This document shows, in pieces, positions 37,047 to 61,152 of a DNA stretch of 64,000 nt. The translations under genes were made by a program, and so were the position numbers. The number at the start of each line of letters is the position of its first letter. Position 1 is the first letter of the stretch. A model generated the notes under the pieces. It was not told the DNA's origin, ran no database searches, and saw only the letters and a program-made list of their open reading frames with translations. Source of the stretch: Cohaesibacter gelatinilyticus (GTDB lineage: Bacteria; Pseudomonadota; Alphaproteobacteria; Rhizobiales; Cohaesibacteraceae); contig NZ_OBEL01000008.1 of NCBI RefSeq assembly GCF_900215605.1, positions 1 through 64,000 of the forward strand, read 5' to 3'.

Positions 37047-37090
37047 CGTCCCTCATTTGTGAGGTCAGGAAAGAATTAAAGGATCAAATC

Positions 37091-37933: not shown

Positions 37934-37951
37934 GAAACACGGGTATCTGAC

Positions 37952-42748: not shown

Positions 42749-42767
42749 AGTTTCCTCCTGAAATTCC

Positions 42768-42781
42768 ATTAACATGTTAAT
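42768..42781. promoter_or_regulatory. HpaR-type operator before the second hpaD
   Basis: ATTAACATGTTAAT is a perfect 14-bp palindrome 20 bases upstream of the hpaD start. The core TTAACATGTTAA recurs with one mismatch each in two sites between hpaF and hpaR. Confidence 0.75.
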
Positions 42782-44921: not shown

Positions 44922-44933
44922 GAACTTATCTTT

Positions 44934-45737
44934 CTATTCGAACTGGCAGGTGACGGAACCGAAAGTGCCGAAGTCAGCATCAAAACGGCTGCCCGGCGTT
45001 GCCTCGATCGGCCGGATGAAGGAGCCGGACAGCACAATATCGCCAGCCCGGATGTGATCGCCATAAATGGCGAGGCGATTGGCCAGCCAGGCAACGGAAG
45101 TCGCCGGATCATCCAGCACCCCTGCCCCCAGTCCGGTTTCTTCCACCTCACCATTGCGTTTGGCGATGGCACCTGCCCAACGCATATCAATTTCACTTGG
45201 ATCGAACCGCTCATTACCCAGAACAAGTCCGGCATTGGCGGCATTGTCGGCAATGGTATCGAAGACCTTGCGAATGGCACCGGTCTCTGCATCCTGACGC
45301 ACGATGCGGGTGTCAAGAATTTCCAGCGATGGCGCAAGGCTCTCGGTCGCTGCAATCACTTCATCGCGGCCCACATCCGGCCCCTTCAGATCCTCTTTCA
45401 TGATGAAGGCAATCTCAGCCTCGATCCGTGGCTGAATGAAGCGCCCTTTGGGAATGGTCGCGCCATTTTCAAACCGCATGTCATCAAACAGAATGCCACT
45501 ATCGGGAATATCGATTTTCAATGCATCCTGCATGGCCTTTGAAGTCAGGCCAATTTTCCAGCCGATGATCTTGCGACCAGCACCCAGCTTGTGATCGACC
45601 AGCGCCGACTGCACCCGATAGGCATCTTCCATATCCATTTCAGGATTGGCCTTGGTCAGCAGACCGATCTGTGTGCCGGTCTTTTCCGCTTCAAACAGAG
45701 CATTGGCAACCGCAAAGACATCTTCTCTCATGCTCAT
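44934..45737 (-). CDS. hpaH: 2-oxo-hept-4-ene-1,7-dioate hydratase HpaH
   Basis: A 267-residue hydratase of the FAH-related HpaH/MhpD group. It shows [35 protein letters not shown], then [19 protein letters not shown] with the metal-binding glutamates. It hydrates the diene to 4-hydroxy-2-oxoheptanedioate for HpaI, 12 bases downstream. Its start overlaps the hpaG stop by four bases. Confidence 0.92.
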
Positions 45738-46585
45738 TGTTCGTCCTCCACTCCGTTGATCAGGGTCCCGATCCCTTCAACCTCAATCTCGACCACATCG
45801 CCGGGTTTGAGATATTTCGGCGGATCAAAGCGAGCACCGGCACCGGTTGGCGTACCGGTGATGATGATATCGCCCGGCTGCAGGGTCATGAAGGTGGAGA
45901 TATATTCGATCTCGCGGCGGATGGGAAACATCATGCGGCTGAGCACATCATCCTGACGCACCTCACCATTGACGCGGGTAATGATGCGCGCATCATCCAG
46001 TTGAGAGGCGTCTGTGAAAGGCACAAGCCATGGGCCGATGGAGCCGGATTTGTCCCAATTCTTGCCTTGGGTGACATTGAATTTGGCATGACGCACCCAG
46101 TCACGGATGGTGCCCTCATTGCACAAGGTAAGCGCCGCAATATGATCATAGGCGTCAATCTGACTGATCCGGCGACCACCCTTGCCGATGACGATGGCAA
46201 CTTCACCTTCATAATCGAGCGTATGGTTTTCCGGTGGGCGGATCAGAGGGCGATTATGGCCGGTAAAACCGGAAGCAAAGCGCGGGAAGAGCGACATATA
46301 TTTCGGCTGAGTGCTGCCATCCTTATATTCGGCATTGCGATCCGGGAAATTCACCCCCACGCACAGGATACGCGGTGCGCTCGGCATCACCATTTCATAA
46401 TCGAACTCGGTGTGAGTGACGGCGCGATCTTTGGCTGCTTCCACCAATTGCTCCAGCGCACCAGCGGCAACAACATCATAAAGCGTTGGCCATTGCGCAA
46501 AGTCCGGAGACAGGGCAATCGCCCCATCATCCGTGATGGCACCATAAAAGGTTTCGCCCTTGGCGGTATAAGTTGCAATGCGCAT
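45734..46585 (-). CDS. hpaG: HpaG-type fumarylacetoacetate hydrolase family protein
   Basis: A 283-residue FAH-fold enzyme. Motifs are ILCVGVNFPDRNAEYKDGS, RPLIRPPENHTLDYEGEVAI with the acidic metal ligands, and GDIIITGTPTGAGARFDPP with the GTPxG loop. In this operon it should decarboxylate and/or isomerise the dienoate produced by HpaE and HpaF. E. coli HpaG is a fused tandem protein of about 430 residues; here a single domain carries the function, so the decarboxylase could be homodimeric. Confidence 0.88.
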   Translation of the reverse strand: MRIATYTAKGETFYGAITDDGAIALSPDFAQWPTLYDVVAAGALEQLVEAAKDRAVTHTEFDYEMVMPSAPRILCVGVNFPDRNAEYKDGSTQPKYMSLFPRFASGFTGHNRPLIRPPENHTLDYEGEVAIVIGKGGRRISQIDAYDHIAALTLCNEGTIRDWVRHAKFNVTQGKNWDKSGSIGPWLVPFTDASQLDDARIITRVNGEVRQDDVLSRMMFPIRREIEYISTFMTLQPGDIIITGTPTGAGARFDPPKYLKPGDVVEIEVEGIGTLINGVEDEQ

Positions 46586-46667
46586 TCAAGCCTCCTCGGC
46601 GGCATCGATCCCGCCCATGCAGAGATATTTTAATTCCAGAAAAGAACAATGAATCAATAGTGTAGCT

Positions 46668-47513
46668 TCAAGCCAGCGAGAAGCTTGCATTCACCTGACC
46701 GGTGCCGGAGCTACCAAAGTAAGGCGTATGGATTTCGCAAGAACCTTTATAGTCTTCCCAGCCAAGAGCCCCGAACAGCAGAGCCGTATCGACCATGCCG
46801 CATTCGCCTGCGCAATTGGCAGCATAGGCAGGCAGCATGTCGAGAAATTCTTCCCAGCGCCCTTCCGCCCAGAGATCCAGCACACGCAAATCCATCTGAC
46901 GATTGAATTCGCCATTCACCTTGTTCAGGTAATCGCTGGAAATCTCATTGGGAGCAAAAGCATGGCTAAGAGAACCAGAGGCATAAATCGCAACCTTGCG
47001 GTCCGACTTGGCAATCGCCCGTGCAATGGCTTCCCCGGCAATGCGGTTTTCCTCAATGGACGAGAATTGGTTGGCCGCCATGGGCAACACATTGGCAATC
47101 GGGCCTTCATTAATGAAATGCATCGGCAAAAGCGTGCCATATTCCACACCAAGGTCAGGCTGGTTATGAGCCATGGCTTTCAAGCCGGTTTCCTGAATTT
47201 CCTTGACCACCAGATCCGCCAGATCCGGTGCTCCGTCATAGCCATATTCCATATCTGCCAGCATATGTGGCAATTCATGGCTGATGAAGCGGCCTTGATG
47301 GCGGGGTTTGGAATTCAAATGGAAGCCCTGATTGACGATCCAGTGGGTATCGAAAATCAGAAATGTATCGACGCCCGCTGCCAATGCTTCTTCGCGAAGT
47401 TTGGCAAAACCATCGATGGCATTTTGGCGAATGCCCTTATGCTGAGGCATGGTATGCGACATCCAGATGGATGGAACATGCGTAATCTTCGCCGCCTGTA
47501 CAATCTCTCCCAT
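46668..47513 (-). CDS. hpaD: 3,4-dihydroxyphenylacetate 2,3-dioxygenase HpaD
   Basis: A 281-residue LigB-type extradiol dioxygenase that cleaves homoprotocatechuate. Motifs are AAKITHVPSIWMSHTM, FLIFDTHWIVNQGFHLNSKP, DLGVEYGTLLPMHFIN and VAIYASGSLSHAFAPN, matching the second hpaD at 41894 in order and spacing. It lies between hpaE and hpaG in the operon. The ribosome binding site GAGGAAAAG precedes ATG 47513. Confidence 0.9.
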   Translation of the reverse strand: MGEIVQAAKITHVPSIWMSHTMPQHKGIRQNAIDGFAKLREEALAAGVDTFLIFDTHWIVNQGFHLNSKPRHQGRFISHELPHMLADMEYGYDGAPDLADLVVKEIQETGLKAMAHNQPDLGVEYGTLLPMHFINEGPIANVLPMAANQFSSIEENRIAGEAIARAIAKSDRKVAIYASGSLSHAFAPNEISSDYLNKVNGEFNRQMDLRVLDLWAEGRWEEFLDMLPAYAANCAGECGMVDTALLFGALGWEDYKGSCEIHTPYFGSSGTGQVNASFSLA

Positions 47514-47574
47514 CTTTTCCTCCCTGTTTTGTCTCTCAAAAGCCTGATGCTTGCCGACCCTTTATTCCTATAGA

Positions 47575-47600
47575 CGAGAGGGAAGATATCTCCCCTCTCG
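47575..47600 (-). other. Intercistronic hairpin between hpaE and hpaD
   Basis: CGAGAGGG and CCCTCTCG form an 8-bp stem around a 10-nt loop, with no U-run. It probably affects message processing or relative expression within the operon. Confidence 0.55.
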
Positions 47601-47613
47601 AATAAGTTTTGGA

Positions 47614-49125
47614 TCAAGCGCCAAGCTTTGGAATGGAATGCTCGCCAAGTGCGAAGGCGATATTCTTCTGCTCCATGTAGAATTCAAAGGACCAGTCACC
47701 ACCATCGCGACCGATACCGGACGCTTTGACCCCACCAAATGGTGACGGCAGATGGCGCACATTCTCCGAGTTCACCCAGATCATGCCAGCTTCCAGCTTG
47801 TCAGTGAAGCGGATGGCACGGGTCAGATCGTTGGTCCAGACATAGCCGGAGAGGCCATAGTCAACACCATTGGCGATTTCCAAGGCCTCTTCCTCGGTCT
47901 CGAACTCGATGGCGGTCAGGAATGGACCAAAGATTTCTTCCTGAGAAACGCGCATGTCAGGCTTTGCATTGGTGACAAGGGTCGGAGCAACGAAATAACC
48001 CTCGTTACCTATACGCTTACCACCTGCTGCAATGGTTGCACCATCTTCCTTTGCGATATCGAAATAGCTGGTCACCTTGTTGAAATGCTCTTCATGGATC
48101 AGCGGACCGACTTCGGTCTTTGGATCCAGAGGATGACCCACACGGATTTTCTTCACCCGCTCGATCAGCTTTTCCTGAAATTCCTTGGCAACAGACTTCT
48201 GGATCAGCAGACGCGAAGAAGAGGTACAACGCTCACCATTCAATGAGTAGATCATGAAGATCGCGGCATCCAGAGCGCGGTCAAGATCGGCATCTTCAAA
48301 GACCACGACAGGGTTCTTGCCACCCAGTTCGAAATGCACGCGCTTCAGGGTATCTGCGCCTTGCTTCATGATCAGGGAACCGGTGCGGCTCTCACCGACA
48401 AAGGCAATCGCCTTGATATCAGGATGCTCGGTCAGACGCTTGCCTGCATCTTCACCAAAGCCGTTGACCAGATTCCAGACGCCTTTCGGCAGACCTGCCT
48501 CATGGGCAATCTCCGCCAGAATGCGAGCGGTCAGTGGAGAGAATTCCGCAGGCTTGTGCACCACAGTACAACCTGCCGCCAGAGCCGGAGCGATTTTCCA
48601 GGTGGACAGCATGAAAGGCGTGTTCCACGGAGTGATGACGCCGACCGGTCCGATTGGTGTGCGGGTGGTGACATTCATCAGGGTCGGAGACTGCAAATTC
48701 TGACCATCACGTGCCGAGGATACCTTGTCAGCAAAGAAGCGGAAGTTGGCCGCGCCACGCAGGGCCGCCTTGGACATGAAGCGATAGGCCTGTCCGGTAT
48801 CCCAGCATTCACAAAGGGCGATTTCTTCGGCGCGCTCTTCAATCAGCTCGGCAATGCGGATCAGGATAGCCTTGCGCTCTTTGGCAGGCATATCACGCCA
48901 AGCGGGAAATGCTGCCTTAGCGGCTGCGGCTGCTGCATCCATGTCAGCAGCATCTCCCTTGGCTACCTGGCAGATCAGGCTATTATCGACCGGAGAGGTC
49001 GTATCAAATCTTGCGCCATTGATGGCTGGACGGCTTTCACCATTGATCAGATTTTCAATCCCTGATGTTTTGAAGCGGTCCAGATAGCCTTCAAGCTTTG
49101 CAATATGGGTCTGTAGATCTGACAT
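47614..49125 (-). CDS. hpaE: 5-carboxymethyl-2-hydroxymuconate semialdehyde dehydrogenase HpaE
   Basis: A 503-residue aldehyde dehydrogenase. Features are GVITPWNTPFMLSTWKIAPA, FELGGKNPVVVFEDADLD with the general-base Glu, and NGERCTSSSRLLIQ with catalytic Cys. The N-terminal extension and the NFRFFADKVSSARDGQ segment are typical of HpaE. It oxidises the ring-cleavage semialdehyde. Its ATG overlaps the hpaF stop by one base (TAATG). Confidence 0.93.
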   Translation of the reverse strand: MSDLQTHIAKLEGYLDRFKTSGIENLINGESRPAINGARFDTTSPVDNSLICQVAKGDAADMDAAAAAAKAAFPAWRDMPAKERKAILIRIAELIEERAEEIALCECWDTGQAYRFMSKAALRGAANFRFFADKVSSARDGQNLQSPTLMNVTTRTPIGPVGVITPWNTPFMLSTWKIAPALAAGCTVVHKPAEFSPLTARILAEIAHEAGLPKGVWNLVNGFGEDAGKRLTEHPDIKAIAFVGESRTGSLIMKQGADTLKRVHFELGGKNPVVVFEDADLDRALDAAIFMIYSLNGERCTSSSRLLIQKSVAKEFQEKLIERVKKIRVGHPLDPKTEVGPLIHEEHFNKVTSYFDIAKEDGATIAAGGKRIGNEGYFVAPTLVTNAKPDMRVSQEEIFGPFLTAIEFETEEEALEIANGVDYGLSGYVWTNDLTRAIRFTDKLEAGMIWVNSENVRHLPSPFGGVKASGIGRDGGDWSFEFYMEQKNIAFALGEHSIPKLGA

Positions 49126-49514
49126 TATTGGTCACCTTCCAGAAACTGACGTATTGAATTCTTCTTCGGGCTTAATTCGGGATCGATGTCACGCATTTCC
49201 ATCGATAGAGCCAATGGCATCTCTTTCATCAGCGGTGCCAGATAGGCGCTGGCCGCTTCAAAGATCTGCTCCGTTGCGGCTTTGCGCACTTCCAGAGTAC
49301 GCCCACCACGCAAGCGAACAGAGATGTCGATATAGGCCCTGTTGTCCTCACCATCGGCAATGGAACAATGGCTCGCTGCAAAGGCCCTCACCCGAATGCC
49401 TGGCATGGGAAAAACACCGGTTTGCAAACCCACTTCCCGCAGGTGGTTGCAAAAGTCTGCCATATCCATCCGGTCTTCCAGATTGGGTGAGTAATCGATG
49501 CAGAAATGCGGCAT
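49125..49514 (-). CDS. hpaF: 5-carboxymethyl-2-hydroxymuconate isomerase HpaF
   Basis: A 129-residue tautomerase-related isomerase beginning MPHFCIDYSPN, with the N-terminal proline expected to act as catalytic base after Met removal. Further features are GVFPMPGIRVRAFAASHCSI and DISVRLRGGRTLEVRKAATE. Length fits HpaF (about 126). It is the first gene of the hpaF-E-D-G-H-I operon. HpaR-type operators lie 90-120 bases upstream. Confidence 0.92.
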   Translation of the reverse strand: MPHFCIDYSPNLEDRMDMADFCNHLREVGLQTGVFPMPGIRVRAFAASHCSIADGEDNRAYIDISVRLRGGRTLEVRKAATEQIFEAASAYLAPLMKEMPLALSMEMRDIDPELSPKKNSIRQFLEGDQ

Positions 49515-50283: not shown

Positions 50284-51642
50284 TCAGCCGCTTACGGCTT
50301 TCAAACCAGTCTCCAAAGCGGAGATGATCTTCTGACAGTCTTGCGAAGTGACAACCAGCGGCGGTGACAACAGGATATTGTTGCCGGACACACGCACCAT
50401 CACCCCATCTTCATAAGCAGCTTTCTGCAGAACCACCGGTAGATTCTTATCGACGGGCTTCTTGGTCGCCCGGTCAGAGACCAGCTCAAGGCCAAGCATC
50501 AAACCTTCACCACCGCGCACATCACCGACCAATTCGTAGCGTTCCATCAAACCTTTCAGCCCGGCATGAAGTTCATCACCACGCGCCGCTGCATTTTCAT
50601 GCACACGCAGACGTTTGATTTCTTCCAGACAGGCAATACCAGCTGCTGCCCCAACCGGATGGCCGGAATAGGTATAGCCACTATCAATGGAGGCTTTTCC
50701 GCTAACGTCTTTCTCGAAGACATCAGCAACATGGTCTGAAATCATGACCGCACCAAACGGGAAATAACCATTGGTAATCGCCTTGGCTGTACACATGAAA
50801 TCAGGCTTCACGCCCCAATGACGCGCACCAGACTCCGTGCCTGTCCGTCCAAAGGCGGTGATAACCTCGTCGGAGATCAGCAAGATGCCATGCTTGTCGC
50901 AGACTTCGCGCACCATCGGCATGAAGCTTTTATGAGGCGGAATGACACCCCCTGCTCCCAGTACCGGCTCCATGATCATGGCTGCAATGGTATTGGCACC
51001 TTGAAAGGCGATCTCATCTTCCAACGCAGCCACACAGAGCTGCGCCAGTTTGGCCGGATCACTCTCATTGAATGGATTGCGATAGGTGTAAGGTGCCGGA
51101 ATATGATAACAGCCCGGCAACAATGGCTCATAGGAATTGCGGAATTTACCATTGCCGTTGACACTGGCAGCACCGGTATGCGTGCCATGATAGCCTTTCT
51201 TGAGGCTAAGATATTTCACACGGCCAGCCTCGCCGCGGATCTTGTGATATTGCCGTGCGAGACGAAGAGCAACCTCGACAGAATCCGAGCCCCCGGAAGT
51301 AAAGAAAGCGCGAGACAAACCATCTGGGGCAAAGAATTGCGCCAGCTCGTAGGAAAGCTCGATCACCTTGTCATTGGTGGTGCCACGAAAGGTCGAGTAA
51401 TAGGGCAAATCATTGAGCTGATCTGCAATGGCTTTTTTGACTACATCGCAGGAATAGCCAAGATTGACATTCCAAAGACCACCAACCGCATCAATCACCT
51501 TGTTGCCATCCACATCGATGATGGAAACACCCTCACCACCGGTCAGGATGGTTGGCAGATTTTTCTGGCTATCAGCCGGATGCGCCATGGGATGCCAGAC
51601 ATGGCGGGCATTATTCTCTTTCAGAAAATTGGAATCTTTCAT
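50284..51642 (-). CDS. Class III omega-aminotransferase
   Basis: A 452-residue PLP enzyme. Features are RHVWHPMAHPADSQKNLPTI, FTSGGSDSVEVALRLARQYH, GYHGTHTGAASVNG, LISDEVITAFGRTG with the PLP-ring Asp, and CTAKAITNGYFPFGAVMIS with the Schiff-base Lys. It fits omega-amino-acid:pyruvate or polyamine transaminases. The start overlaps the stop of a 57-codon gene (ATGA), and the operon is headed by an IclR regulator. Confidence 0.88.
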   Translation of the reverse strand: MKDSNFLKENNARHVWHPMAHPADSQKNLPTILTGGEGVSIIDVDGNKVIDAVGGLWNVNLGYSCDVVKKAIADQLNDLPYYSTFRGTTNDKVIELSYELAQFFAPDGLSRAFFTSGGSDSVEVALRLARQYHKIRGEAGRVKYLSLKKGYHGTHTGAASVNGNGKFRNSYEPLLPGCYHIPAPYTYRNPFNESDPAKLAQLCVAALEDEIAFQGANTIAAMIMEPVLGAGGVIPPHKSFMPMVREVCDKHGILLISDEVITAFGRTGTESGARHWGVKPDFMCTAKAITNGYFPFGAVMISDHVADVFEKDVSGKASIDSGYTYSGHPVGAAAGIACLEEIKRLRVHENAAARGDELHAGLKGLMERYELVGDVRGGEGLMLGLELVSDRATKKPVDKNLPVVLQKAAYEDGVMVRVSGNNILLSPPLVVTSQDCQKIISALETGLKAVSG

Positions 51643-51812
51643 ATTTTCTCCTCCGGCTGCAGGCCGAGATGGTCCAGCGCCTCTTGATAGGATTGGGCCT
51701 GGGCCATTACGCCGAATTCAACGCAGCACATGCTGACAGCTTGCGCGCCGATAATGTTGCGATGCTGGTCATCGACAGAATTCAGAACAAGGGACTGGTT
51801 CACATCAGGCAT
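51639..51812 (-). CDS. 57-residue small protein, possibly RebB-like
   Basis: A short gene between the IclR and aminotransferase genes. It reads MPDVNQSLVLNSVDDQHRNI, then IGAQAVSMCCVEFGVMAQAQ and ends LQPEEKI. Both ends overlap neighbours (ATG inside the IclR stop region, TGA within ATGA of the aminotransferase start), and GGAGGAATGGAAGA is a strong ribosome binding site. The pattern weakly recalls the RebB killing-trait family of small R-body proteins, but no other reb gene is near. Function unknown. Confidence 0.6.
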   Translation of the reverse strand: MPDVNQSLVLNSVDDQHRNIIGAQAVSMCCVEFGVMAQAQSYQEALDHLGLQPEEKI

Positions 51813-52587
51813 TCTTCCATTCCTCCAATAGAGCGACAGGCGTGATCCCGCCCCATTCCTTGGTCAGTTGCTGCGAGGCTTTCCTCAAGGCAACTTCGAT
51901 AATGCCAATAAGCTCGGCATCCAGTCGGCTGCTCGGTGTGGCAACGGCCACCGCTCCAATCGCGGTTCCCTTGGCATCAAAAATCGGGGCGGCAATGCCA
52001 TAGACTTCTTTTTCAAACCCGTCGCGAGAGCGGCCAAATCCGGTTTGGCGCGCCTCTGATATCTCCGAGCGCAGCACTTCGGCGTCCGTTACGGTCTCGG
52101 AAGTGAAACTTTCAAACGGCGTTTCCAGCCATTCGTTCAACGCGCCCGACTGCTGAAAGGCCATCACTGCCTTACCTGAGGCCGTGGCGTGAAGAGGCAG
52201 ACGCACAGCCGGGTCAATCATCACGCGTGTGCCATGTTTCAGGGTCTCTTGCTGCGCGATGGTGCTCAAGGTTTCCCCTTCCAGCATGGAAAGATGCACC
52301 GTCTCGGTCGTGGTCTCACAAAGAGCGGCAAGAATGGGACGCGCGGCCTCTTGGGCTGGAAAAGTCTGTTCGCGCACATTGGCAAGACGCAGAACAGCGG
52401 GGCCAAGACGATAGGTTTTGCGTTCCATATCCTGTTCAAGAAATCCCATTTCAACAAGTTCGGTCAGCAAACGCAGAACCGTTGCCTTGTTATGACCGGT
52501 AAGGCGCGTGAATTGGGTCAAACCAATTTCCGGCAAATCATTCGAGAAGTAATCCAGCAACTTCAATGCTTTACTTACCGTTCCCAT
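51805..52587 (-). CDS. IclR-family regulator
   Basis: A 260-residue repressor. The winged helix is VSKALKLLDYFSNDLPEIGL, TQFTRLTGHNKATVLRLLTE, then GFLEQDMERKTYRLGPAVL. The C-terminal effector domain includes PLHATASGKAVMAF and GFGRSRDGFEKEVYGIAAPI. It is the first gene of the operon with the small protein and aminotransferase, and is divergent from the TTT transporter. A matching palindromic operator lies at 52683. Confidence 0.9.
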   Translation of the reverse strand: MGTVSKALKLLDYFSNDLPEIGLTQFTRLTGHNKATVLRLLTELVEMGFLEQDMERKTYRLGPAVLRLANVREQTFPAQEAARPILAALCETTTETVHLSMLEGETLSTIAQQETLKHGTRVMIDPAVRLPLHATASGKAVMAFQQSGALNEWLETPFESFTSETVTDAEVLRSEISEARQTGFGRSRDGFEKEVYGIAAPIFDAKGTAIGAVAVATPSSRLDAELIGIIEVALRKASQQLTKEWGGITPVALLEEWKNA

Positions 52588-52747: not shown

Positions 52748-53701
52748 ATGAAAAAAGCTCTCAATCTCCTCACAGCGCTCAGTATGCTTGCTGCAACCGG
52801 TTTGGCTGCAACCACACCAGCTCAAGCCGAATATCCTGAAAAGCCTGTTTCCTTCATCGTGCCGTGGCCCCCAGGTGATCTGGAAGATGTCCTGACCCGC
52901 ATCATCGCAGATGAGTTTCAGGCCACCTATGGCGTGCCAGCTGCCGTGGTCAACAAGCCCGGCGGCGGCGGCGGCCCATTCCCGGGTGCGGTCTCTGTGG
53001 CAACGGCTCCGGCTGATGGCTACACCATCGGTTCCTTTGTGGTCGACGTTCCTGTCTCAGGCCCTGTTATCGGAATTCCGGAATTGTCCCCAAATCCGTT
53101 TGAACCAATCGGCGGCTTCATGACCTATCCGTTCGTGATTGTCGCAAAAGGGGATGCGCCTTACAGCAACTGGGCTGAATTCTCCGAATATGCAAAAAAG
53201 AACGAAGTCACCCTTGGCCATTTTGGTGCGCCCCTGCCTCCAACCCGCATCACGCTTGCTGCTGCCAAAAAATCCGGCTTTGACTTTGGCTCTGATGCTG
53301 CCTTTGACGAGTTGACCTGCAATACGCTTGCCTCAGGCGATGCTGATGTCATCAACACCACCATCCAGCTGGTGCTGCCGTGCCTGAAAGACGTGAAGGT
53401 CCTTGCTTCCATTGGTGAAGAACGCATCAGCCTGACCCCTGACGTTCCAACTGTCGCGGAACTCTTCCCGGAACTGAATGTGTCGCTTTGGAATGGCCTT
53501 TATGTCCGCAAGGGCACCCCGGATGACGTGCGCGAGAAAATTGCTACCGTTGCACAAAAGGCTCTGAAATCTGAGAAAGCTCAAAAGCTGATCAAGGAAA
53601 CCGGTGTTCTGATCTATTGGAACAACCCGGAAGAAACCAACAAGGTCCTCGAGAAGCATACCGGCATTCTTGCCAATATCGACAAGCTTCTGGACGAATA
53701 A
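52748..53701 (+). CDS. TTT-family substrate-binding protein (TctC/Bug)
   Basis: A 317-residue periplasmic protein. A signal peptide (cleavage after AQA) is followed by YPEKPVSFIVPWPPGDLEDV and NKPGGGGGPFPGAVSVATAP, typical of tripartite tricarboxylate transporter binding proteins. Bug-fold features such as the loop DVPTVAELFPELNVSLWNGL are clear. Ligands are usually small carboxylates; here the natural ligand may be the substrate of the downstream enzymes. A terminator separates it from tctB and tctA. Confidence 0.9.
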   Translation: MKKALNLLTALSMLAATGLAATTPAQAEYPEKPVSFIVPWPPGDLEDVLTRIIADEFQATYGVPAAVVNKPGGGGGPFPGAVSVATAPADGYTIGSFVVDVPVSGPVIGIPELSPNPFEPIGGFMTYPFVIVAKGDAPYSNWAEFSEYAKKNEVTLGHFGAPLPPTRITLAAAKKSGFDFGSDAAFDELTCNTLASGDADVINTTIQLVLPCLKDVKVLASIGEERISLTPDVPTVAELFPELNVSLWNGLYVRKGTPDDVREKIATVAQKALKSEKAQKLIKETGVLIYWNNPEETNKVLEKHTGILANIDKLLDE

Positions 53702-53719
53702 GTTCCCTGGAGCCGAGAA

Positions 53720-53765
53720 GAAGCCGATCTGACCCTGCATCCATCTGCAGGGATCGGCTTCTTTT
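53720..53765 (+). terminator. Nested hairpin and terminator after tctC
   Basis: GAAGCCGATC (53720-53729) pairs with GATCGGCTTC (53752-53761), with an inner CCCTGCA/TGCAGGG stem and TTTT following. It is likely a partial terminator making the binding protein more abundant than the membrane components. Confidence 0.8.
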
Positions 53766-53834
53766 CACACATTGCGAACCTGCCGACTGACCATCGGCAG
53801 AACGGGCTATTGCATCACATAAAAGGATCGGCAC

Positions 53835-54374
53835 ATGTCGCGCATCAAGACATTGCAGGAACTTTTCAAGCGCTATCGCAGGCCGGGAGATATTGTCTTT
53901 GCAATTCTCTTTTGCTTCTTCTCCTTCTTCCTGCTTTCCCAGCTTGAATTTCAGACCAAATGGGTTGCCCGCACCAAGCTTTATGCGCAACCAAGTTTCT
54001 GGCCTGCTGCCTCCATTTTGGGCATGACCATCTTTTCGGTCCTGCATTATATCGGCTCGCTCTGCTCTCCGCGCATTGCTGGCCGTTGGACCGAGGTCTG
54101 GTTCTGGCTGCGCTCTGCGGAATATGTGCTCTATTTCCTGATCTATGTCGCTCTCGTTCCATGGCTCGGCTATCTGCCCTCCACCATGGCTTTCGCGCTG
54201 TTTCTAGCCTTGCGTGTCGGCTATCGATCCAGGCAGGCCATCCTCAGTGCAGTGGCCTTCGGCATGGGTGTGGCAATCATTTTCCGGGCTTTTCTTCAGG
54301 TCAAAATTCCATCGGGTGAGCTTTACAACCACCTGCCTGATGCCGTGCGGGCCTTTGCCCTAACCTATTTGTGA
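53835..54374 (+). CDS. TTT-family small membrane subunit (TctB)
   Basis: A 179-residue membrane protein with four predicted helices (first at residues about 18-40, FAILFCFFSFFLLSQLE). Motifs include VLYFLIYVALVPWLGYLPST and LRVGYRSRQAILSAVAFGMG, typical of TctB. It joins with TctA to form the permease. AAAGGATCGGCAC precedes the ATG. It ends nine bases before tctA. Confidence 0.85.
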   Translation: MSRIKTLQELFKRYRRPGDIVFAILFCFFSFFLLSQLEFQTKWVARTKLYAQPSFWPAASILGMTIFSVLHYIGSLCSPRIAGRWTEVWFWLRSAEYVLYFLIYVALVPWLGYLPSTMAFALFLALRVGYRSRQAILSAVAFGMGVAIIFRAFLQVKIPSGELYNHLPDAVRAFALTYL

Positions 54375-54382
54375 GAATCATC

Positions 54383-55918
54383 ATGGAACAATTGCTTTCC
54401 GGCTTTATCATTCTCGCTCAATGGGAAGTGTTGATCGCACTGCTGATCGGCTCTGTTGGCGGCGTCATCATCGGTGCCATCCCGGGGGTGGGTGCCCCTG
54501 TCGCCATCGCCATCCTGCTGCCCGCCACCTTTTCCTTTGAGCCTATTGTCGGCCTGACCTTGCTACTTGGGATCTATGGCTCTTCCATGTATGGCGGCTC
54601 CATTCCGGCCATTCTGATCAACACGCCCGGCACAGCAGTAAACGCGCTGACCACCTATGACGGTTACCCCATGACCAAACGTGGTCAAGGACATCGCGCG
54701 CTATCGCTTGCTTATTCCGCCTCTTTCTTCGGCGGCATCTTTTCTATTCTATGCCTGATCATTCTCTCTCCTGTTCTGGCCTGGATTGCGCCGCATTTTG
54801 GCTCTCGAGAGATTTTTCTGGCAGCCCTGATGGGCATCATTCTGGTTGTCCTGGCCCATCGTGGACAGGTCTTGGCCGCCGGCATGCTGGCCTGTTTCGG
54901 TGTCTTCCTCTCCACCGTCGGGCTGGAGCCGGTCAAATATACCAAGCGCTTCACCTTTGATCAGACCTGGCTCGGCTCCGGTATCGATCTGATCGTCGTG
55001 GTGCTTGGCCTGTTCGCCATCTCGCAAGCCCTTCTGTTGTTGATCGACAAGGAACATGCGCCAAAATCCACCCATGTCGAGGGCAATCTCTTCTCCGGCC
55101 TGAAAGAGCTTTTCGGCATCAAGCGTGTCGCAACCGCCGCCTCAAGCCTTGGCGTTTTGATGGGTATGATCCCCGGCGTTGGCGAATTCACCGCCCAGTT
55201 CCTGTCCTATACCTATGCGCAGAAAAGCTCGAAAGATCCGGACAAGTTCGGCAATGGATCCCCGGAGGGTCTGGTCGCCTCTGAAGCCGCCAACAATGCG
55301 GTACCCGGCGCAGCCATGATCCCGCTTCTGGCATTGGGCGTTCCAGGTGAGGCCCTGACCGCGATGATGCTATCGGTCTTCTATGTCCATAATGTCATTC
55401 CCGGTCCGCAATTGTTCGATACCAAGCTCGACTTCGTCTTTGCGCTCTATATGGCATTGCTGCTGCTCAATATCTTCGTGATGATCTTCCTGCTTTTCTC
55501 AACCAATTGGCTCTTGAAGATCATTCAGATTCCGACCCGGTTCCTCGGCGTGATGATCATCATCCTGTCCTTTGTCGGCGTTTATAGCCTGCGCAATTCC
55601 ATGACCGATTGTATGCTGGCTGCTGGCTTTGGTGTCTTCGGCCTCATATTGAAACGGCTCAATCTGCCGGTCGTTCCGATCATTCTTGGCATGGTGCTAG
55701 GCGGCATCATGGAAACCAAGTTCAGGACAGCCATGGCCCGGGTGAAGAACCCGTTGGATTTCATCGATCGGCCCATCGCTGCCATCCTGTTCGTGATGAT
55801 CCTGGTCATTCTGGTGGCACATGTGCGCACGGTGATGCAGGAGCATCAGATGAACAAGCAAAATCATGATGATCCGGACGATCATGTCGGTCCGGAAACC
55901 TCCACTCAACAAGGCTAA
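54383..55918 (+). CDS. TTT-family large membrane subunit (TctA)
   Basis: A 511-residue permease with about 11-12 helices. Hallmarks are GAIPGVGAPVAIAILLPATF, GIYGSSMYGGSIPAILINTP and the second-half repeats GMIPGVGEFTAQFLSYTYAQ and ALGVPGEALTAMMLSVFYVH. ATG at 54383 is chosen over a GTG at 54371. It ends in a hydrophilic, His- and Asp-rich tail (HDDPDDHVG). The next gene, an aldehyde dehydrogenase, starts four bases later. Confidence 0.9.
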   Translation: MEQLLSGFIILAQWEVLIALLIGSVGGVIIGAIPGVGAPVAIAILLPATFSFEPIVGLTLLLGIYGSSMYGGSIPAILINTPGTAVNALTTYDGYPMTKRGQGHRALSLAYSASFFGGIFSILCLIILSPVLAWIAPHFGSREIFLAALMGIILVVLAHRGQVLAAGMLACFGVFLSTVGLEPVKYTKRFTFDQTWLGSGIDLIVVVLGLFAISQALLLLIDKEHAPKSTHVEGNLFSGLKELFGIKRVATAASSLGVLMGMIPGVGEFTAQFLSYTYAQKSSKDPDKFGNGSPEGLVASEAANNAVPGAAMIPLLALGVPGEALTAMMLSVFYVHNVIPGPQLFDTKLDFVFALYMALLLLNIFVMIFLLFSTNWLLKIIQIPTRFLGVMIIILSFVGVYSLRNSMTDCMLAAGFGVFGLILKRLNLPVVPIILGMVLGGIMETKFRTAMARVKNPLDFIDRPIAAILFVMILVILVAHVRTVMQEHQMNKQNHDDPDDHVGPETSTQQG

Positions 55919-55922
55919 TCTC

Positions 55923-57410
55923 ATGCTGCAACAAGAAGCAATTGATGCCGTCCGCGGCCAGACCCTCGCCCCGCGTGGCCATTTCATCGATGGCCGAAGC
56001 ATCGCCTCAGACAGTGGGGATGTTCTGGATATCATCTCCCCGATTGATGGCGCGATCCTCACGTCCGTTGCTGCGGGCAGCAAGGCAGATATGGACCGCG
56101 CGATCACGTCCGCCCGCTCAGCTTTTGAAGATGGCCGCTGGTCGAAAATGGCTCCGGCGCAGAGAAAAAAGATCCTCATCAAGCTGGCCGAACTGATCGA
56201 GCGCGACGCATTGGAACTTGCCGTGCTCGGTGTCCGCGACAATGGCACCGAGATCAACATGGCCTATAAGGCGGAGAGCTTGTCCGCCGCCGGCACCTTT
56301 CGCTATTATGGCGAGGCAATTGACAAGATTTATGGTCAGATTGCCCCCACCGCCAACTCCGTTCTTGGTCTCATTCATCATGCCCCCGTCGGCGTGGTGG
56401 GAGCCATTGTGCCCTGGAATTTCCCGCTGATGATCGGTTCCTGGAAGATTGCACCTGCGCTCGCTGCAGGTAACAGTATCGTCCTGAAACCGGCTGAAAG
56501 CGCCTCCCTCTCCCTGCTGCATCTGGCCAAATTGGCCTCGGAAGCAGGTGTCCCTGACGGGGTCTTCAATGTCGTGACAGGCAAGGGAAGCGTAGTTGGC
56601 GAGGCCATGGGCCTATCCATGGATGTGGATGTTCTGGTCTTTACCGGATCTGGCGCAACGGGTCGACGTCTTCTGGAATATTCCGCCCGCTCCAATCTCA
56701 AGCGCTGTTATCTGGAACTTGGCGGAAAGTCACCAAACATCATTTTCAATGATGCTCCAGATTTGGCACAAGCCGCCAAGGTCTCTGCCGCGGGCATTTT
56801 CCGCAATTCCGGTCAGGTCTGCGTGGCCGGGTCCCGCCTTCTGGTCCAAGAAGACATTCACGATGACTTCGTTGCTGAAATGAGCCGCCATGCCAAGGAC
56901 TTCAAGGTCGGCAATCCCCTTGATCTGAGCAGCCAGATTGGGGCTGTACATAGTCTGTCCGAGCTGGAAGCCAATCTGCAATTCGTGCAAACGGCGCAAG
57001 AGGAAGGCGCGCAATGTGTGGCTGGTGGAAAGCGGATCCTTTCGGAAACCGGTGGCTACTACATGGCCCCAACGGTCATGAGCGGCGTCAAGGTAGAGGA
57101 CAATCTGCACCAGAATGAAGTCTTTGGCCCGGTTCTCGCCGTCACGCCTTTCAAAGATGAAGCAGATGCCATCCGCATTGCCAACAGCACCGTTTATGGC
57201 CTCTCTGCCGGTGTCTGGACATCCAATCTCTCCCGCGCTCACCGCATGATCGAGGAAATCAAATCCGGTGTCATTCACGTCAACACCTATGGCGGGTCGG
57301 ACCTGACCGTGCCCCTTGGTGGCGTGAAGCAATCGGGCAATGGTCATGACAAGAGCCTGCATGCCATGGACAAATATTTCGATCTGAAATCCGCCTGGAT
57401 CCAGCTTTAG
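55923..57410 (+). CDS. Aldehyde dehydrogenase
   Basis: A 495-residue NAD(P)-dependent aldehyde dehydrogenase. Motifs are GAIVPWNFPLMIGSWKIAPA, FTGSGATGRRLLEY, LELGGKSPNIIFNDAPDL with the catalytic Glu and NSGQVCVAGSRLLVQ with the nucleophilic Cys. ATG at 55923 is preferred over 55866, which lies inside tctA. The family member resembles gamma-aminobutyraldehyde or PuuC-like enzymes. It probably oxidises the aldehyde released by the PLP enzyme encoded next. Confidence 0.88.
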   Translation: MLQQEAIDAVRGQTLAPRGHFIDGRSIASDSGDVLDIISPIDGAILTSVAAGSKADMDRAITSARSAFEDGRWSKMAPAQRKKILIKLAELIERDALELAVLGVRDNGTEINMAYKAESLSAAGTFRYYGEAIDKIYGQIAPTANSVLGLIHHAPVGVVGAIVPWNFPLMIGSWKIAPALAAGNSIVLKPAESASLSLLHLAKLASEAGVPDGVFNVVTGKGSVVGEAMGLSMDVDVLVFTGSGATGRRLLEYSARSNLKRCYLELGGKSPNIIFNDAPDLAQAAKVSAAGIFRNSGQVCVAGSRLLVQEDIHDDFVAEMSRHAKDFKVGNPLDLSSQIGAVHSLSELEANLQFVQTAQEEGAQCVAGGKRILSETGGYYMAPTVMSGVKVEDNLHQNEVFGPVLAVTPFKDEADAIRIANSTVYGLSAGVWTSNLSRAHRMIEEIKSGVIHVNTYGGSDLTVPLGGVKQSGNGHDKSLHAMDKYFDLKSAWIQL

Positions 57411-57421
57411 AGGGCATGCCG

Positions 57422-58732
57422 ATGACGCTGTCAGCAAAATCTCAAGATCTCTTGGACCGGCGCGCAAAATTGCTCGGCCCCAATGTCTCAACCTTCTATG
57501 ACGAACCCATTCATGTGGTCAAAGGAGAAGGCGTGTGGCTATGGGATGCCGACGGGCGCAAATATCTCGATTGCTATAACAATGTGCCCCATGTGGGCCA
57601 TTGCAATCCGCGCGTGGTGGAAGCAATCCATCGTCAGGCCAGCACCCTCAATGTCCATACCCGCTATCTGCATGAAGGCATTCTGGATTATGTCGAGCGG
57701 CTCACCTCCACCTTTGATGACAGCTTATCGACCGCCATCATGACCTGCACCGGGTCCGAGGCCAATGACATTGCCCTTCGTATGGCAACGGCTGTGACCG
57801 GCAAGCGCGGTGTCATTGCAACGGACGCCACCTATCATGGCAACACCACTGCTGTCTCCCAGCTATCACGCAGCAATGTGCCGGGTACTGGCATCGGCGA
57901 TCATGTGCGTTTCGTACCAGCGCCCGACAGCTATCGCCCTCTTGGCAGCGAAGGGGGTATGGCGCATGCCGAGCTTTTTGCCGAGAAGCTGCGCGAAGAG
58001 ATCGAGGCGCTTGAGAAAAGCGAATATGGCTTTTCGGCGTTCATTCTCTGCCCCTTTTTCTTGAATGAAGCCTTTCCGGATCTCCCGCAGGGCTGGCTGA
58101 AATCAGCCTTTGACGCCGCACGCAAGGCTGGTGGCCTGATCATTTGCGATGAGGTGCAGCCGGGCTTTGGTCGTCTGGGCAGCCATTTCTGGGGTCATCA
58201 AAAACAAGGTGTTATGCCGGATATCGTGACCATGGGCAAACCCATGGCCAATGGCCATCCGGTCGGCGCGGTTGTCACACAAACAGACATCATAGCGGCG
58301 TTTCGAAAGTCCTTTCGTTACTTCAACACCTTTGGTGGTAATCCGGTTTCCTGCGCTGCTGCCATGGCCGTTTTGGACGAATTGCAAGACCGATCCCTGA
58401 TGGACAATGCCCACACTGTCGGAGCCTATGCCAAACAGCGCCTGCTGGACTTGCAGGAAAAGCACGAACAGATCGGTGATGTCAGAGGCAGTGGCTTGGT
58501 CTTTGGCGCGGAATTGGTGCTGGATCGTGGGACCAAGGAACCGGCTACAAGCTATGCAAACAAGCTGGTGAACGAGATGCGCCAGCGTGGCATCATCCTG
58601 TCCAAGCTTGGACGGCATTACAATATGCTGAAGATCCGCCCACCCATGCCATTCTCTAGGGAAAATGCTGATCTGCTGTTTGATCACCTGGATGAAGTGC
58701 TGGCAAGCCTGCCGATGGATGCGCCCTCATGA
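57422..58732 (+). CDS. AGXT2L-type PLP enzyme (putative phospho-lyase)
   Basis: A 436-residue class III aminotransferase-fold protein. It carries [20 protein letters not shown] and [20 protein letters not shown], and the PLP lysine lies in [17 protein letters not shown]. These features are typical of AGXT2L1/AGXT2L2, the ethanolamine-phosphate and phosphohydroxylysine phospho-lyases (from memory), not of ordinary omega-transaminases. The upstream GAGGG spacing favours MTLSAK at 57422 over 57416. It overlaps the downstream kinase gene by four bases. Phospho-lyase activity is inferred, not shown. Confidence 0.78.
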
Positions 58733-59700
58733 ATGGTGTAGTGAAACCGGCCCACACCGCTCCTGATCTGGCTGTGATTGTCAAAGCAGCTCTTACCGAA
58801 TGGGACTTGATGGGCGCCGATTATCATCTGGTGGCAGAGCGAGAAAACAGAGTGTTTCAGGTGCGGCATAAGAACGGCACTTTTGCGCTTCGTTTGCATC
58901 GCCCCGGCTATCGCATTGATGCGGAGTTGCGCTCCGAGCTGAGCTGGATGCGGATGCTGTCTGATCAGGGTCTGTTGGTGCCAACACCGCAGACCACCAA
59001 GAATTGTCAACTTCTTTGCACCATCGGTGGATTTCAAATCGATTGTCTGAACTGGTTGAATGGCACGCCTCTGGGTAAGACAGGCCATCCCATAACAATT
59101 GAAAATCTGTCTGAACGCATACTCAGCATTGGGCGCGATATTGCTCTCCTTCATCACCATTCCGATGCATGGGCACCGGATGCCGATTTCACACGCTGGC
59201 ATTGGAACCAGAACGGATTGATCGGCGAGCAGCCGGTCTGGGGGGCATTCTGGAAGAACCCTGACCTAACAGCATCCCAGCGCGATCTGTTTTTGGAAGC
59301 AAAAGCCTTCGCCAATCAGCGGCTGAGCAAGTATCACACATCGCTGGATTACGGACTGATCCATGCTGATCTGGTGCGCGAGAACATTCTGCTCGGCGAG
59401 CAAGGCACCCAATTCATCGACTTTGACGATGGAGGATATGGCTATCGCCTGTTCGAGCTGGCAACCTTGCTGTCGAAATTGACTGACAGAGATGATTTCG
59501 AACAGCTGAAAGCCGCTCTGCTGAATGGTTACAGGCAAGTGAGACCGATCGATACCGCCTTGCTTGATCTCTTCATGATGATCCGTGCGCTGACCTATCT
59601 CGGCTGGATCATTCCGCGATTGAGCGAACCGGGAGGGACCGCTCGCAATGCCCGCTTCATCGCAACAGCAGGGCATTGGGCACGAAAGATTATAGAATAA
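58729..59700 (+). CDS. APH/ChoK-fold small-molecule kinase
   Basis: A 323-residue phosphotransferase of the aminoglycoside-phosphotransferase fold. The catalytic loop is LIHADLVRENILLGE (HxDxxxxN) and the DFD-like motif is FIDFDDGGYGYRLFELATLL. The N-terminal lobe contains VFQVRHKNGTFALRLHRPGY. It is translationally coupled (ATGA) to the phospho-lyase-like gene, the pairing seen for hydroxylysine kinase and its phospho-lyase partner. The acceptor is unknown; an amino alcohol is the favoured guess. Confidence 0.8.
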   Translation: MNGVVKPAHTAPDLAVIVKAALTEWDLMGADYHLVAERENRVFQVRHKNGTFALRLHRPGYRIDAELRSELSWMRMLSDQGLLVPTPQTTKNCQLLCTIGGFQIDCLNWLNGTPLGKTGHPITIENLSERILSIGRDIALLHHHSDAWAPDADFTRWHWNQNGLIGEQPVWGAFWKNPDLTASQRDLFLEAKAFANQRLSKYHTSLDYGLIHADLVRENILLGEQGTQFIDFDDGGYGYRLFELATLLSKLTDRDDFEQLKAALLNGYRQVRPIDTALLDLFMMIRALTYLGWIIPRLSEPGGTARNARFIATAGHWARKIIE

Positions 59701-59728
59701 CGCTTTGGCAAAGCGTTGGGAGGACGCA

Positions 59729-60967
59729 ATGAATGACAAGGTAATTCTCATTATCGGGACATATGACACCAAGAATAATGAGCTCGATTATATCGCATCC
59801 AAGATCCGCGATCAGGGCGGCAAGGTTCTGACCATGGATGTCAGTGTGTTGGGTGACCCGGTCGAGCCAACGGACATCTCCAAGCATGATGTGGCAAAGG
59901 CCGGTGGCATGACCATCGAACAAGTTATTGCCCAGGGCGATGAGAATAAGGCCTTCCGCGTCATGTCCCGTGGTGCAGCCTCCGTTGTGCTGGAAGCCTA
60001 TATGGCCGGGCGCTTTGATGCGATGATTGCCCTTGGTGGCACCATGGGAACCGATCTGGCGCTGGATTGCGCGCAAGCCCTGCCCATGGGTGTGCCGAAA
60101 TATATTGTCTCCACCGTCAGCTTCTCCCCGCTCATCCCGCCCCATCGTCTTGCCGCTGACATTCAGATGATCCTTTGGGCCGGTGGCCTCTATGGCATGA
60201 ATTCCATCTGCAAATCCTCCCTCTCCCAGGCAGCCGGGGCCGTGCTTGGTGCAGCCCGTGCGGTGGAAATGCCAGCCCGTGACAAGCCGATGATCGGCAT
60301 GACCAGCCTTGGTTCTTCTTGCCTTCGATATATGAAAAGCCTGAAACCCGCTTTGGAAGAACGTGGCTTTGAAGTGGCTGTCTTCCATTCCACCGGCATG
60401 GGGGGCATGGCCTTTGAAAAGCTGGCACGAGAAGGCGCCTTTGCCTGCGTGATGGATTTCTCCATGCAAGAATTTGGCAATATGCTGGCGGGATCCTTGG
60501 TCTCCAGCGGCACTGATCGACTGACCAATGCCGGAGCCTCTGGAACCCCGCAGCTTGTTGCAGCTGGCGCGCTGGATTTACTCGATTTTGCAGGCTGGCA
60601 GGAAATCCCCGAACAATATCAGGATCGCCCCTTCCATGAGCATAACCGACTGATCAAGAGCGCCGTCTTCAATGCAGAGGAACGCCGTCAATGGGTGCGT
60701 GAACTGGCCAACCGCTTGAAAGAGGCCAAGGGCCCGACCCACTTCTTCCTCACTGCTGGTGGCGTGGAAGAATGGGACCGCGAAGGTCAGGAAGCCCATG
60801 ATCCGGAGGGTCTGGCGGCTCTGATTGATGAGGCCCGCAAGGTCATACCAGCCGCCTCTGAGATGAGTGATCTCGAGTGCCACATCAATGATCAGGCCTT
60901 CAGCGATGCAGTGCTAGCCAAATTCGATGAATGGCTAGCAAACGGAACCGTCAAATCCGCCATTTAA
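59729..60967 (+). CDS. Tm-1-like ATP-binding domain protein (UPF0261)
   Basis: A 412-residue cytosolic protein of the UPF0261 family. Motifs are ILIIGTYDTKNNELDYIA, MIALGGTMGTDLALDCAQAL, MGVPKYIVSTVSFSPL, MIGMTSLGSSCLRYMKSL and FHSTGMGGMAFEKLA. The N-terminal domain resembles the ATP-binding part of the tomato Tm-1 protein. Biochemical function in bacteria is unsettled. TTGGGAGGACGCA precedes the ATG. It lies 28 bases after the kinase and probably belongs to the operon. Confidence 0.85.
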   Translation: MNDKVILIIGTYDTKNNELDYIASKIRDQGGKVLTMDVSVLGDPVEPTDISKHDVAKAGGMTIEQVIAQGDENKAFRVMSRGAASVVLEAYMAGRFDAMIALGGTMGTDLALDCAQALPMGVPKYIVSTVSFSPLIPPHRLAADIQMILWAGGLYGMNSICKSSLSQAAGAVLGAARAVEMPARDKPMIGMTSLGSSCLRYMKSLKPALEERGFEVAVFHSTGMGGMAFEKLAREGAFACVMDFSMQEFGNMLAGSLVSSGTDRLTNAGASGTPQLVAAGALDLLDFAGWQEIPEQYQDRPFHEHNRLIKSAVFNAEERRQWVRELANRLKEAKGPTHFFLTAGGVEEWDREGQEAHDPEGLAALIDEARKVIPAASEMSDLECHINDQAFSDAVLAKFDEWLANGTVKSAI

Positions 60968-61015: not shown

Positions 61016-61152
61016 GGCTTTGAGCGAAAGGAAGAAAGCAATCCAAAGGGTCGTGCTGTTTAAAGATGGTTGAGAAGCGCAACCTAATATGACACTAATT
61101 GTATGTGTAAATTTCCAGAATGAGTTCCCGCCCTTCAATCAAGTGTCCTACC

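Follow-up and report, generated by a model that had tools for sequence, protein, structure and literature searches.

A candidate kinase and phospho-lyase module next to a homoprotocatechuate operon in Cohaesibacter gelatinilyticus, with a proposed role in aromatic beta-hydroxy-amine catabolism

The DNA analysed here is a stretch of 64,000 nucleotides (positions 1 to 64,000 of contig NZ_OBEL01000008.1, RefSeq assembly GCF_900215605.1) from the alphaproteobacterium Cohaesibacter gelatinilyticus, hereafter called the window. Between positions 52748 and 60967 it carries five types of gene, encoding a tripartite tricarboxylate transporter (TTT), an aldehyde dehydrogenase, a pyridoxal phosphate (PLP)-dependent protein, an APH-fold kinase and a Tm-1-like protein. 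The original prediction, made from the letters of the sequence, had read these as a catabolic module, and all five types are indeed open and full length at these positions, with their families confirmed by Pfam and NCBIfam. The unit extends beyond this interval, however, as its conserved neighbourhood also includes an IclR-family regulator, a transaminase and a set of homoprotocatechuate (3,4-dihydroxyphenylacetate) genes.

Conservation was followed across 89 loci, namely the window, 80 named loci (the best 80 of at least 576 relatives) and 8 unnamed loci. Neighbouring genes were mapped by tblastn, replacing an earlier map based on open reading frames (ORFs), in which antisense shadow ORFs left the PLP gene found in 72 of the 89. 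These loci come from close relatives and are non-independent, and contig ends truncate several of them. The genes of the module and its two neighbours on the left are as follows, with counts giving the loci that share each gene.

50284..51642, minus strand: class III (omega-type) transaminase (NF005683/PRK07481, 720 bits, cut-off 575; 54/89 loci)
51805..52587, minus strand: IclR-family regulator, divergent to the module (Pfam IclR_C and HTH_IclR; 58/89 loci)
52748..53701, plus strand: TctC substrate-binding protein with the loop PPGDLEDV (Pfam TctC)
53835..54374, plus strand: TctB small membrane subunit (Pfam TctB)
54371..55918, plus strand: TctA large membrane subunit (Pfam TctA)
55923..57410, plus strand: aldehyde dehydrogenase, proposed to oxidise arylacetaldehydes (Pfam Aldedh; PDB 6b4r, KauB, 519 bits; 54/89 loci)
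57422..58732, plus strand: predicted PLP-dependent phospho-lyase of the AGXT2L/ETNPPL type (PDB 5g4i, 406 bits, and 6tor, 353 bits; tree)
58729..59700, plus strand: APH-fold small-molecule kinase (Pfam APH; PDB 6ef6, 106 bits; HAD(x4-5)N and IDFDD motifs; 84/89 loci)
59729..60967, plus strand: UPF0261/Tm-1-like protein (NF002676, 594 bits, cut-off 556; 59/89 loci)

The three TTT subunits are encoded together, and the aldehyde dehydrogenase gene starts four bases after tctA, as had been noted. The coupling described between the PLP and kinase genes also holds, in the form of an ATGA overlap (58729 versus 58732). Alternative starts are present at 57416 for the PLP gene (an in-frame ATG) and possibly at 59705 for the Tm-1-like gene (a TTG). 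Among NCBIfam models the aldehyde dehydrogenase is nearest to PuuC, at a score under that model's cut-off, and the solved structures closest to the transaminase are omega-transaminases (5lh9, 438 bits). Both the N-terminal and the C-terminal UPF0261 domains (PF06792 and PF23189) score over cut-off in the Tm-1-like protein.

The identity of the PLP protein is central to any reading of this locus. Against solved structures it matches the bacterial phospholyase 5g4i and human ETNPPL (6tor) far ahead of the next entry, which scores 200 bits. In a tree of 97 rows it falls in an 86-row clade together with both of these (Shimodaira-Hasegawa-like approximate likelihood ratio test, SH-aLRT, 100), while the neighbouring transaminase and seven other class III proteins of the same genome fall outside. 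This was a quick tree whose branches are long; in it 5g4i, on an end branch of 1.73, joins the protein of one locus, L045. Its rows are 97 of the 165 collected: every second row was taken from L054-L133 and from a sister clade of more distant relatives, and L154-L171, which partly duplicate loci of L054-L133, were excluded. The genome holds 13 class III matches, 8 of them with loci, and the tree took seven of the ten other class III proteins that lie outside the window and exclude a probable fusion protein. That fusion is a 1023-amino-acid open frame in which a second AGXT2L-like domain (39% identity; G000:C1:1169329-1170606) is embedded; judged from its length, the frame is probably of the PRK06148 fusion type.

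The hallmarks that had suggested an AGXT2L-type enzyme are also conserved. The motif NNVPHVGHC and a second motif of ten residues are both present in the protein; among close orthologs the active-site lysine motif GKP[MF][GA]NGHP occurs in 98 of 98 and NNVPHVGH in 88 of 98. Ethanolamine-phosphate phospho-lyase is itself named as a class III enzyme whose reaction is a 1,2-elimination (PMC8154272). Homology, tree and motifs together support placing the PLP protein with AGXT2L/ETNPPL-type phospho-lyases rather than with true transaminases, and phosphate elimination is its predicted activity.

The adjoining kinase is closest to the solved protein 6ef6, an entry named 'aminoglycoside phosphotransferase', which we take to be the (S)-1-amino-2-propanol kinase of the mycobacterial microcompartment in Mycobacterium smegmatis. 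An HxD(x4)N loop (HADLVREN) and a DFD-type metal motif (IDFDD) are present, and each is conserved in 118 of 121 kinases from the close and sister clades. Kinase and lyase genes are consistently paired: across the 89 loci and 38 further ones, 121 of 122 kinase genes lie on the same strand as the lyase match and less than 400 bp from it, the exception being L068. The sequence of import, phosphorylation, phospho-elimination and oxidation that had been outlined for the module is thus supported, as a prediction, by homology, phylogenetic placement, motifs and gene linkage.

Directly to the left of the transaminase lies a set of genes for homoprotocatechuate meta-cleavage (Hpa), which the original prediction had overlooked.

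41894..42775, minus strand: second 3,4-dihydroxyphenylacetate 2,3-dioxygenase (HpaD_Fe, LigB type; TIGR02298, 494 bits, cut-off 316)
44139..44921, minus strand: HpaI aldolase (TIGR02311, 373.9 bits, cut-off 368.8)
44934..45737, minus strand: HpaH hydratase (TIGR02312, 367.3 bits, cut-off 351.5)
45734..46585, minus strand: FAA-hydrolase family protein, HpaG-like isomerase/decarboxylase by operon position (TIGR02303, 158.9 bits, below the cut-off of 276.4)
46668..47513, minus strand: 3,4-dihydroxyphenylacetate 2,3-dioxygenase (HpaD_Fe; TIGR02298, 360 bits, cut-off 316)
47614..49125, minus strand: HpaE, carboxymethyl-hydroxymuconate semialdehyde dehydrogenase (TIGR02299, 797 bits, cut-off 638)
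49125..49514, minus strand: HpaF-like carboxymethyl-hydroxymuconate (CHM) delta-isomerase (NF011605, 78.8 bits, below the cut-off of 215), clustering with a protein of locus L090
49745..50209, plus strand: HpaR, MarR-type regulator of the homoprotocatechuate operon (TIGR02337, 143.5 bits, cut-off 121)

Of the nine genes at 41.9-50.2 kb, six score above the curated cut-offs of homoprotocatechuate models (HpaI, HpaH, both HpaD proteins, HpaE and HpaR). The HpaG-like and HpaF-like proteins score under theirs, and the clustering partner of the latter in L090 matches Pfam CHMI at 131 bits. With HpaD, HpaE, HpaF, HpaG, HpaH and HpaI types all present, the meta-cleavage operon at 44139-49514 is apparently complete, and HpaR accompanies it. 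Between HpaI and the second HpaD, at 43122-44057 on the plus strand, lies a gene for a transporter resembling auxin efflux carriers (TIGR00946, 64 bits, under the cut-off of that model), which among the 89 loci is confined to the window and is possibly an extra transporter of the unit.

The association of these genes is repeated elsewhere. All five gene types of the module occur together in 31 of the 89 loci, the window included, indicating that the arrangement is not due to chance, and the conservation that the original prediction called for is therefore seen, with the kinase accompanying the lyase in 84. After the genes counted above come any TTT subunit (39 loci), a phosphatase of the HAD family (31), CHMI (27) and HpaE (26). 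At least two Hpa enzymes lie in the fetched stretch with the lyase in 27 loci, and at least four in 23. In L049, L067, L102 and L123 the lyase and Hpa enzymes occur without the UPF0261, transaminase, TTT and aldehyde dehydrogenase genes; L049 has, on one strand, the order HpaR-CHMI-HpaE-HpaD-HpaG-HpaH-HpaI-lyase-kinase, and in L102 tblastn gave no kinase match near the lyase. Public annotation places the module beside hpaR, hpaH and hpaI on a plasmid of Rhizobium beringeri. On the megaplasmid of Ruegeria pomeroyi DSS-3 it places transaminase, aldehyde dehydrogenase, lyase, kinase and Tm-1-like genes together, three of them labelled 'aminotransferase class III-fold', 'homoserine kinase' and 'Tm-1-like'; the label 'homoserine kinase' is probably misleading. 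The lyase and kinase genes there carry the locus tags SPO_RS21625 and SPO_RS21630.

Accessory neighbours include the hydroxylase HpaB (9 of 89 loci), a PLP decarboxylase (9) and a phenol hydroxylase (2), all of which fit a diet of aromatic amines. A DMGDH-GcvT fusion accompanies the module in 11 loci. We considered N-methyl demethylation as the main function of the unit and rejected it, as the fusion is confined to those 11 loci and is found neither in the window nor in the others. Several further neighbours were observed in passing. The HAD-family phosphatase (e.g. L082:9324-10004) possibly clears dead-end phospho-amines. Genes for a cytochrome P450 and a glutamine-synthetase-like protein occur side by side close to the module in seven loci (L058, L060, L068, L074, L091, L110 and L117), perhaps for O-demethylation and gamma-glutamylation of amines. 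An RNase Z-like protein of the metallo-beta-lactamase fold adjoins the transaminase in another seven (L046, L051, L061, L069, L077, L083 and L105), in five of which its gene sits between those of the transaminase and the phospho-lyase. Homologs of the lyase also appear in 39 Klebsiella plasmid records; the 30 plasmid rows listed belong to other genera.

Physical linkage is complemented by co-occurrence across whole genomes. In a class-level sample of 385 genomes including that of the window, lyase orthologs (E <= 1e-140) were found in 8, HpaE (TIGR02299) in 16, and both in 7 (Fisher p=4e-10). HpaE is thus present in 7 of 8 genomes with the lyase versus 9 of 377 without it, the exception being G082, whose lyase has 59% identity. 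An order-level sample of 273 genomes was divided into those with a close lyase (at least 62% identity, n=32), those with a sister-clade lyase only (54-61%, n=31) and those with no match (n=210). HpaE occurs in 26 of the 32 close-lyase genomes versus 54 of the 210 without a match (p=2e-9). The 32 genomes span 24 genera, in 18 of which every sampled member with the lyase has HpaE and in 20 of which at least one does. Among the 26, lyase and HpaE are within 30 kb in 7, at 30-100 kb in 3, and on another contig or more than 1 Mb apart in 16. A replicate in another order comprised 15 genomes, too few for use: one carried the lyase and two carried HpaE, with a single genome having both.

Control genes behave differently. 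The inositol gene iolE shows no link (9 of 32 close-lyase versus 64 of 210 no-lyase genomes), and paaA shows a weak one (24 of 32 versus 114 of 210, p=0.03). The HpaE link is seen both within paaA-positive genomes (20 of 24 versus 45 of 114) and within paaA-negative ones (6 of 8 versus 9 of 96). Within the genus, the best lyase match in 17 other genomes has 47% identity and the ortholog is found in the window's genome only, with HpaE present in 9 of the 18 genomes, the window's included. From this comparison, we consider it probable that the amine module was acquired in a lineage whose members commonly had ring cleavage already.

These comparisons bear on a reading in which the substrate is a small aliphatic amino alcohol, such as ethanolamine or 1-amino-2-propanol, and the Hpa operon is merely a frequent neighbour in catabolic islands. 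The closest solved relatives (the bacterial phospholyase, human ETNPPL and the APH kinase 6ef6) point in this direction, as does the sister clade, which retains lyase and kinase without aromatic reference genes. Among the 20 of 31 sister-clade neighbourhoods fetched, the kinase was found in all 20 and any module or Hpa reference gene in none, so the ancestral substrate may be of the aliphatic type. Neighbouring ORFs of this sister-clade pair (L134-L153) are common to up to 20 of the 20 loci. Chance neighbourhood fits less well with the 16 of 26 genomes in which HpaE co-occurs at a distance, or with a link that the sister clade lacks (HpaE in 6 of 31) and the inositol control does not show. The sister clade is itself supported in the tree (SH-aLRT 98) but takes in L124, at 62% identity, so that a few genomes counted as close, such as G450, may belong to it. 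On balance we regard an aliphatic substrate for the module as unlikely.

Hydroxylysine was another candidate. A lyase resembling AGXT2L2 would act on 5-hydroxylysine or a close analogue by the same enzyme logic, and the kinship to AGXT2L holds at the level of the clade. No lysine-catabolic gene is found among the annotated neighbour families, several families being without annotation, and it is ring-cleavage genes that recur; we hold this substrate to be very improbable. Both 5-hydroxylysine and ethanolamine, which had been put forward as test substrates, are disfavoured because of the adjacent Hpa operon and the genome-wide co-occurrence with HpaE.

The import system provides a further indication of the ligand. 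TTT genes are found in 39 loci and an amino-acid permease in 17, and the two never occur together among the 89, as would be expected if both import the same substrate. The TctC of the window and all 48 of its listed module orthologs carry the loop PGD[LFVM][ED]D (a narrower pattern matches 45 of the 48, the other three having APGD). In TctC proteins the corresponding GGxTD-type loop binds the carboxylate; it appears as GGPTD, GGSTD and GGGTD in 2f5x, 2dvz and 4x9t. The module proteins lack this form, and their loop has gained two acidic residues when compared with BugD, 2dvz and 4x9t. The acidic loop is suggestive of a positively charged ligand. By family, TctC, TctB and TctA remain a TTT system, whose ligand may differ.

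The best match of TctC is BugD, an aspartate binder, and in Rhizobium an amino-acid permease replaces the TTT. These observations, together with the PLP decarboxylase that 9 of 89 loci have near the module or inside the Hpa operon, would suit a beta-hydroxy aromatic amino acid (beta-hydroxytyrosine or dihydroxyphenylserine), or a differently shaped aryl amino alcohol, handled by the same kinase and lyase. In some loci the neighbouring decarboxylase may act first. Such a decarboxylase was not seen in the other 80 loci, however, and AGXT2L-type lyases act on terminal amines. The chances of an amino-acid substrate seem to us slim.

The Tm-1-like protein, which the original prediction could not place, is a conserved partner of the module, in 59 of 89 loci. 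Its best structural matches are 9mpy (187 bits) and Tm-1 itself (3wry, 131 bits). One study calls the UPF0261 domain uncharacterised and notes that organisms other than plants generally encode it separately from a TIM-barrel partner (PMC5028733).

Taken together, we consider it probable that the region at 41.9-61.0 kb is one catabolic unit for aromatic beta-hydroxy-amines that feeds the homoprotocatechuate pathway. Enzymes of the phospho-lyase family convert R-CH(OP)-CH2-NH2 to R-CH2-CHO, a reaction established for phosphoethanolamine. The Hpa pathway starts from Ar-CH2-COOH and the lyase would make R-CH2-CHO, so the substrate that joins them would be Ar-CH(OH)-CH2-NH2. From association and chemistry, candidate substrates would be the aryl-ethanolamines octopamine and noradrenaline and, after N-demethylation, synephrine or adrenaline.

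In the proposed pathway, the TTT system would import the aryl-ethanolamine, and the APH kinase would phosphorylate its benzylic beta-hydroxyl. The PLP protein would then form an aldimine with the amine and eliminate phosphate, leaving an enamine that would hydrolyse to ammonia and an arylacetaldehyde. Aldehyde dehydrogenase would oxidise this to the arylacetate, and 3,4-dihydroxy compounds would thereby yield homoprotocatechuate, to be cleaved by the Hpa operon to central metabolites. The omega-transaminase at 50284-51642 probably deaminates non-hydroxylated analogues such as tyramine and dopamine to the same aldehydes. In other loci, HpaB and phenol hydroxylase could add a ring hydroxyl, the PLP decarboxylase could make amines from amino acids, and the DMGDH-GcvT fusion may strip N-methyl groups. 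The gene families, their evolutionary placement, the conserved linkage and the co-occurrence with HpaE are observed; the substrate, the order of steps and the roles of the TTT, the transaminase and the Tm-1-like protein are inferred.

Several points weigh against assigning the unit to aromatic beta-hydroxy-amines. The substrate assignment rests on association and chemistry, and carboxylates are the main ligands known for TTT systems. At 62 of the 89 loci the fetched stretch holds fewer than two Hpa enzymes, and among the 18 of 32 further close-clade neighbourhoods fetched, 13 have module genes and 3 have Hpa genes. HpaE is absent from 6 of the 32 close-lyase genomes, some of which have much of the module (G674/L158, G588/L160 and G642/L159). 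The 62% identity split behind that comparison was set after the first neighbourhoods had been inspected, related genomes are non-independent, and genes on separate draft contigs may still be neighbours. In R. pomeroyi DSS-3 no Hpa gene is annotated within 16 kb of the module, the plasmid gene tables being incomplete. For the aldehyde dehydrogenase, models of phenylacetaldehyde dehydrogenase give lower scores than those of PuuC, HpaE and BADH, and none of these scores reaches its cut-off. Finally, HpaB has no match in the window's genome; mono-phenolic substrates would need some other hydroxylase, which suggests either catecholic substrates here or such a further hydroxylase.

Known systems resemble the unit in part. 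ETNPPL, in its human (6tor) and bacterial (5g4i) forms, shares the sequence clade, the catalytic motifs and the predicted 1,2-elimination of phosphate and amine, but the module lyase belongs to a different subclade, has an adjoining kinase gene and is tied to an aromatic ring-cleavage operon. PbfA, an (R)-1-hydroxy-2-aminoethylphosphonate ammonia-lyase, is a class III relative that likewise performs a 1,2-elimination from a beta-hydroxy amine, yet acts on the hydroxyl itself without a kinase, unlike the pair described here (PMC8154272). The module protein scores 206 bits against the PbfA model (cut-off 525). The 1-amino-2-propanol/aminoacetone microcompartment combines an APH-type phosphotransferase, an aminotransferase-like protein and an aldehyde dehydrogenase for a beta-amino alcohol, and the description of its gene cluster predicted an aminotransferase route rather than a phospho-lyase (PMC6620236). 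No microcompartment gene is seen at our locus, however, and the side chain is probably aromatic. As for the Hpa/Hpc meta-cleavage pathway, all its enzyme types and HpaR are present, but here with two HpaD_Fe genes, no HpaB match in the genome, and an apparent supply from the amine module.

Parallels in overall chemistry are octopamine dehydratase (EC 4.2.1.87) and synephrine dehydratase (EC 4.2.1.88), whose net reaction is the conversion of an aryl-ethanolamine to an arylacetaldehyde and an amine. To our knowledge these are orphan activities without a gene. A kinase-plus-phospho-lyase strategy is known to act on hydroxylysine and has been proposed for further small amino alcohols. In the actinobacterium Arthrobacter, a phenylephrine dehydratase that depends on ATP consists of a kinase plus a lyase and is not known from other bacteria. 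The module genes differ in occurring in alpha- and gammaproteobacteria and in their association with the Hpa operon. Linkage and co-occurrence with hydroxyphenylacetate catabolism, as expected of an octopamine dehydratase, were found, with exceptions. No paper on octopamine, synephrine or phenylephrine dehydratase was found in the open literature, and overlap with subscription literature is possible. We tentatively suggest, as a possibility that we would not yet favour, that the kinase and phospho-lyase are the genetic basis of the octopamine/synephrine/noradrenaline 'dehydratase' in alpha- and some gammaproteobacteria. Together with a TTT whose TctC would have shifted from carboxylates to aromatic amines that are cationic, they would make up a catabolic system for neurotransmitter amines, to which the Tm-1-like protein would be dedicated, so that UPF0261 would gain its first metabolic context.

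The surroundings of the unit are of other kinds. Genes for a thiamine pyrophosphate enzyme, a PfkB kinase, KduI/IolB and a class II aldolase at 34165-38785 (plus strand) have Pfam families that fit a myo-inositol operon, and these inositol-type genes form the left border of the aromatic region. Farther left, a protein with a dioxygenase C-terminal domain (28046-28672, plus strand) and a dienelactone-hydrolase-like protein (28677-29588, minus strand) possibly represent another aromatic function. Directly after the module, at 61120-61818 (plus strand), is a nuclease-like protein (SNase) that ends in a 'sunset' domain at its C-terminus, and an ORF to the right of the module resembles a two-ATPase component of an ABC transporter, its translation having been judged by eye.

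If the proposed reading is true, it would supply genes for enzyme activities that have been orphans for decades, and would show how marine and rhizosphere bacteria consume adrenaline-like amines and trace amines of animal and plant origin. It would take the kinase and phospho-lyase strategy beyond the phenylephrine case of Arthrobacter, to the aromatic amines used by proteobacteria. UPF0261 and an unusual class of TTT systems would each gain a metabolic context that can be tested. Because R. pomeroyi DSS-3 carries the transaminase, aldehyde dehydrogenase, lyase, kinase and Tm-1-like genes together, the proposal is directly testable in that organism.

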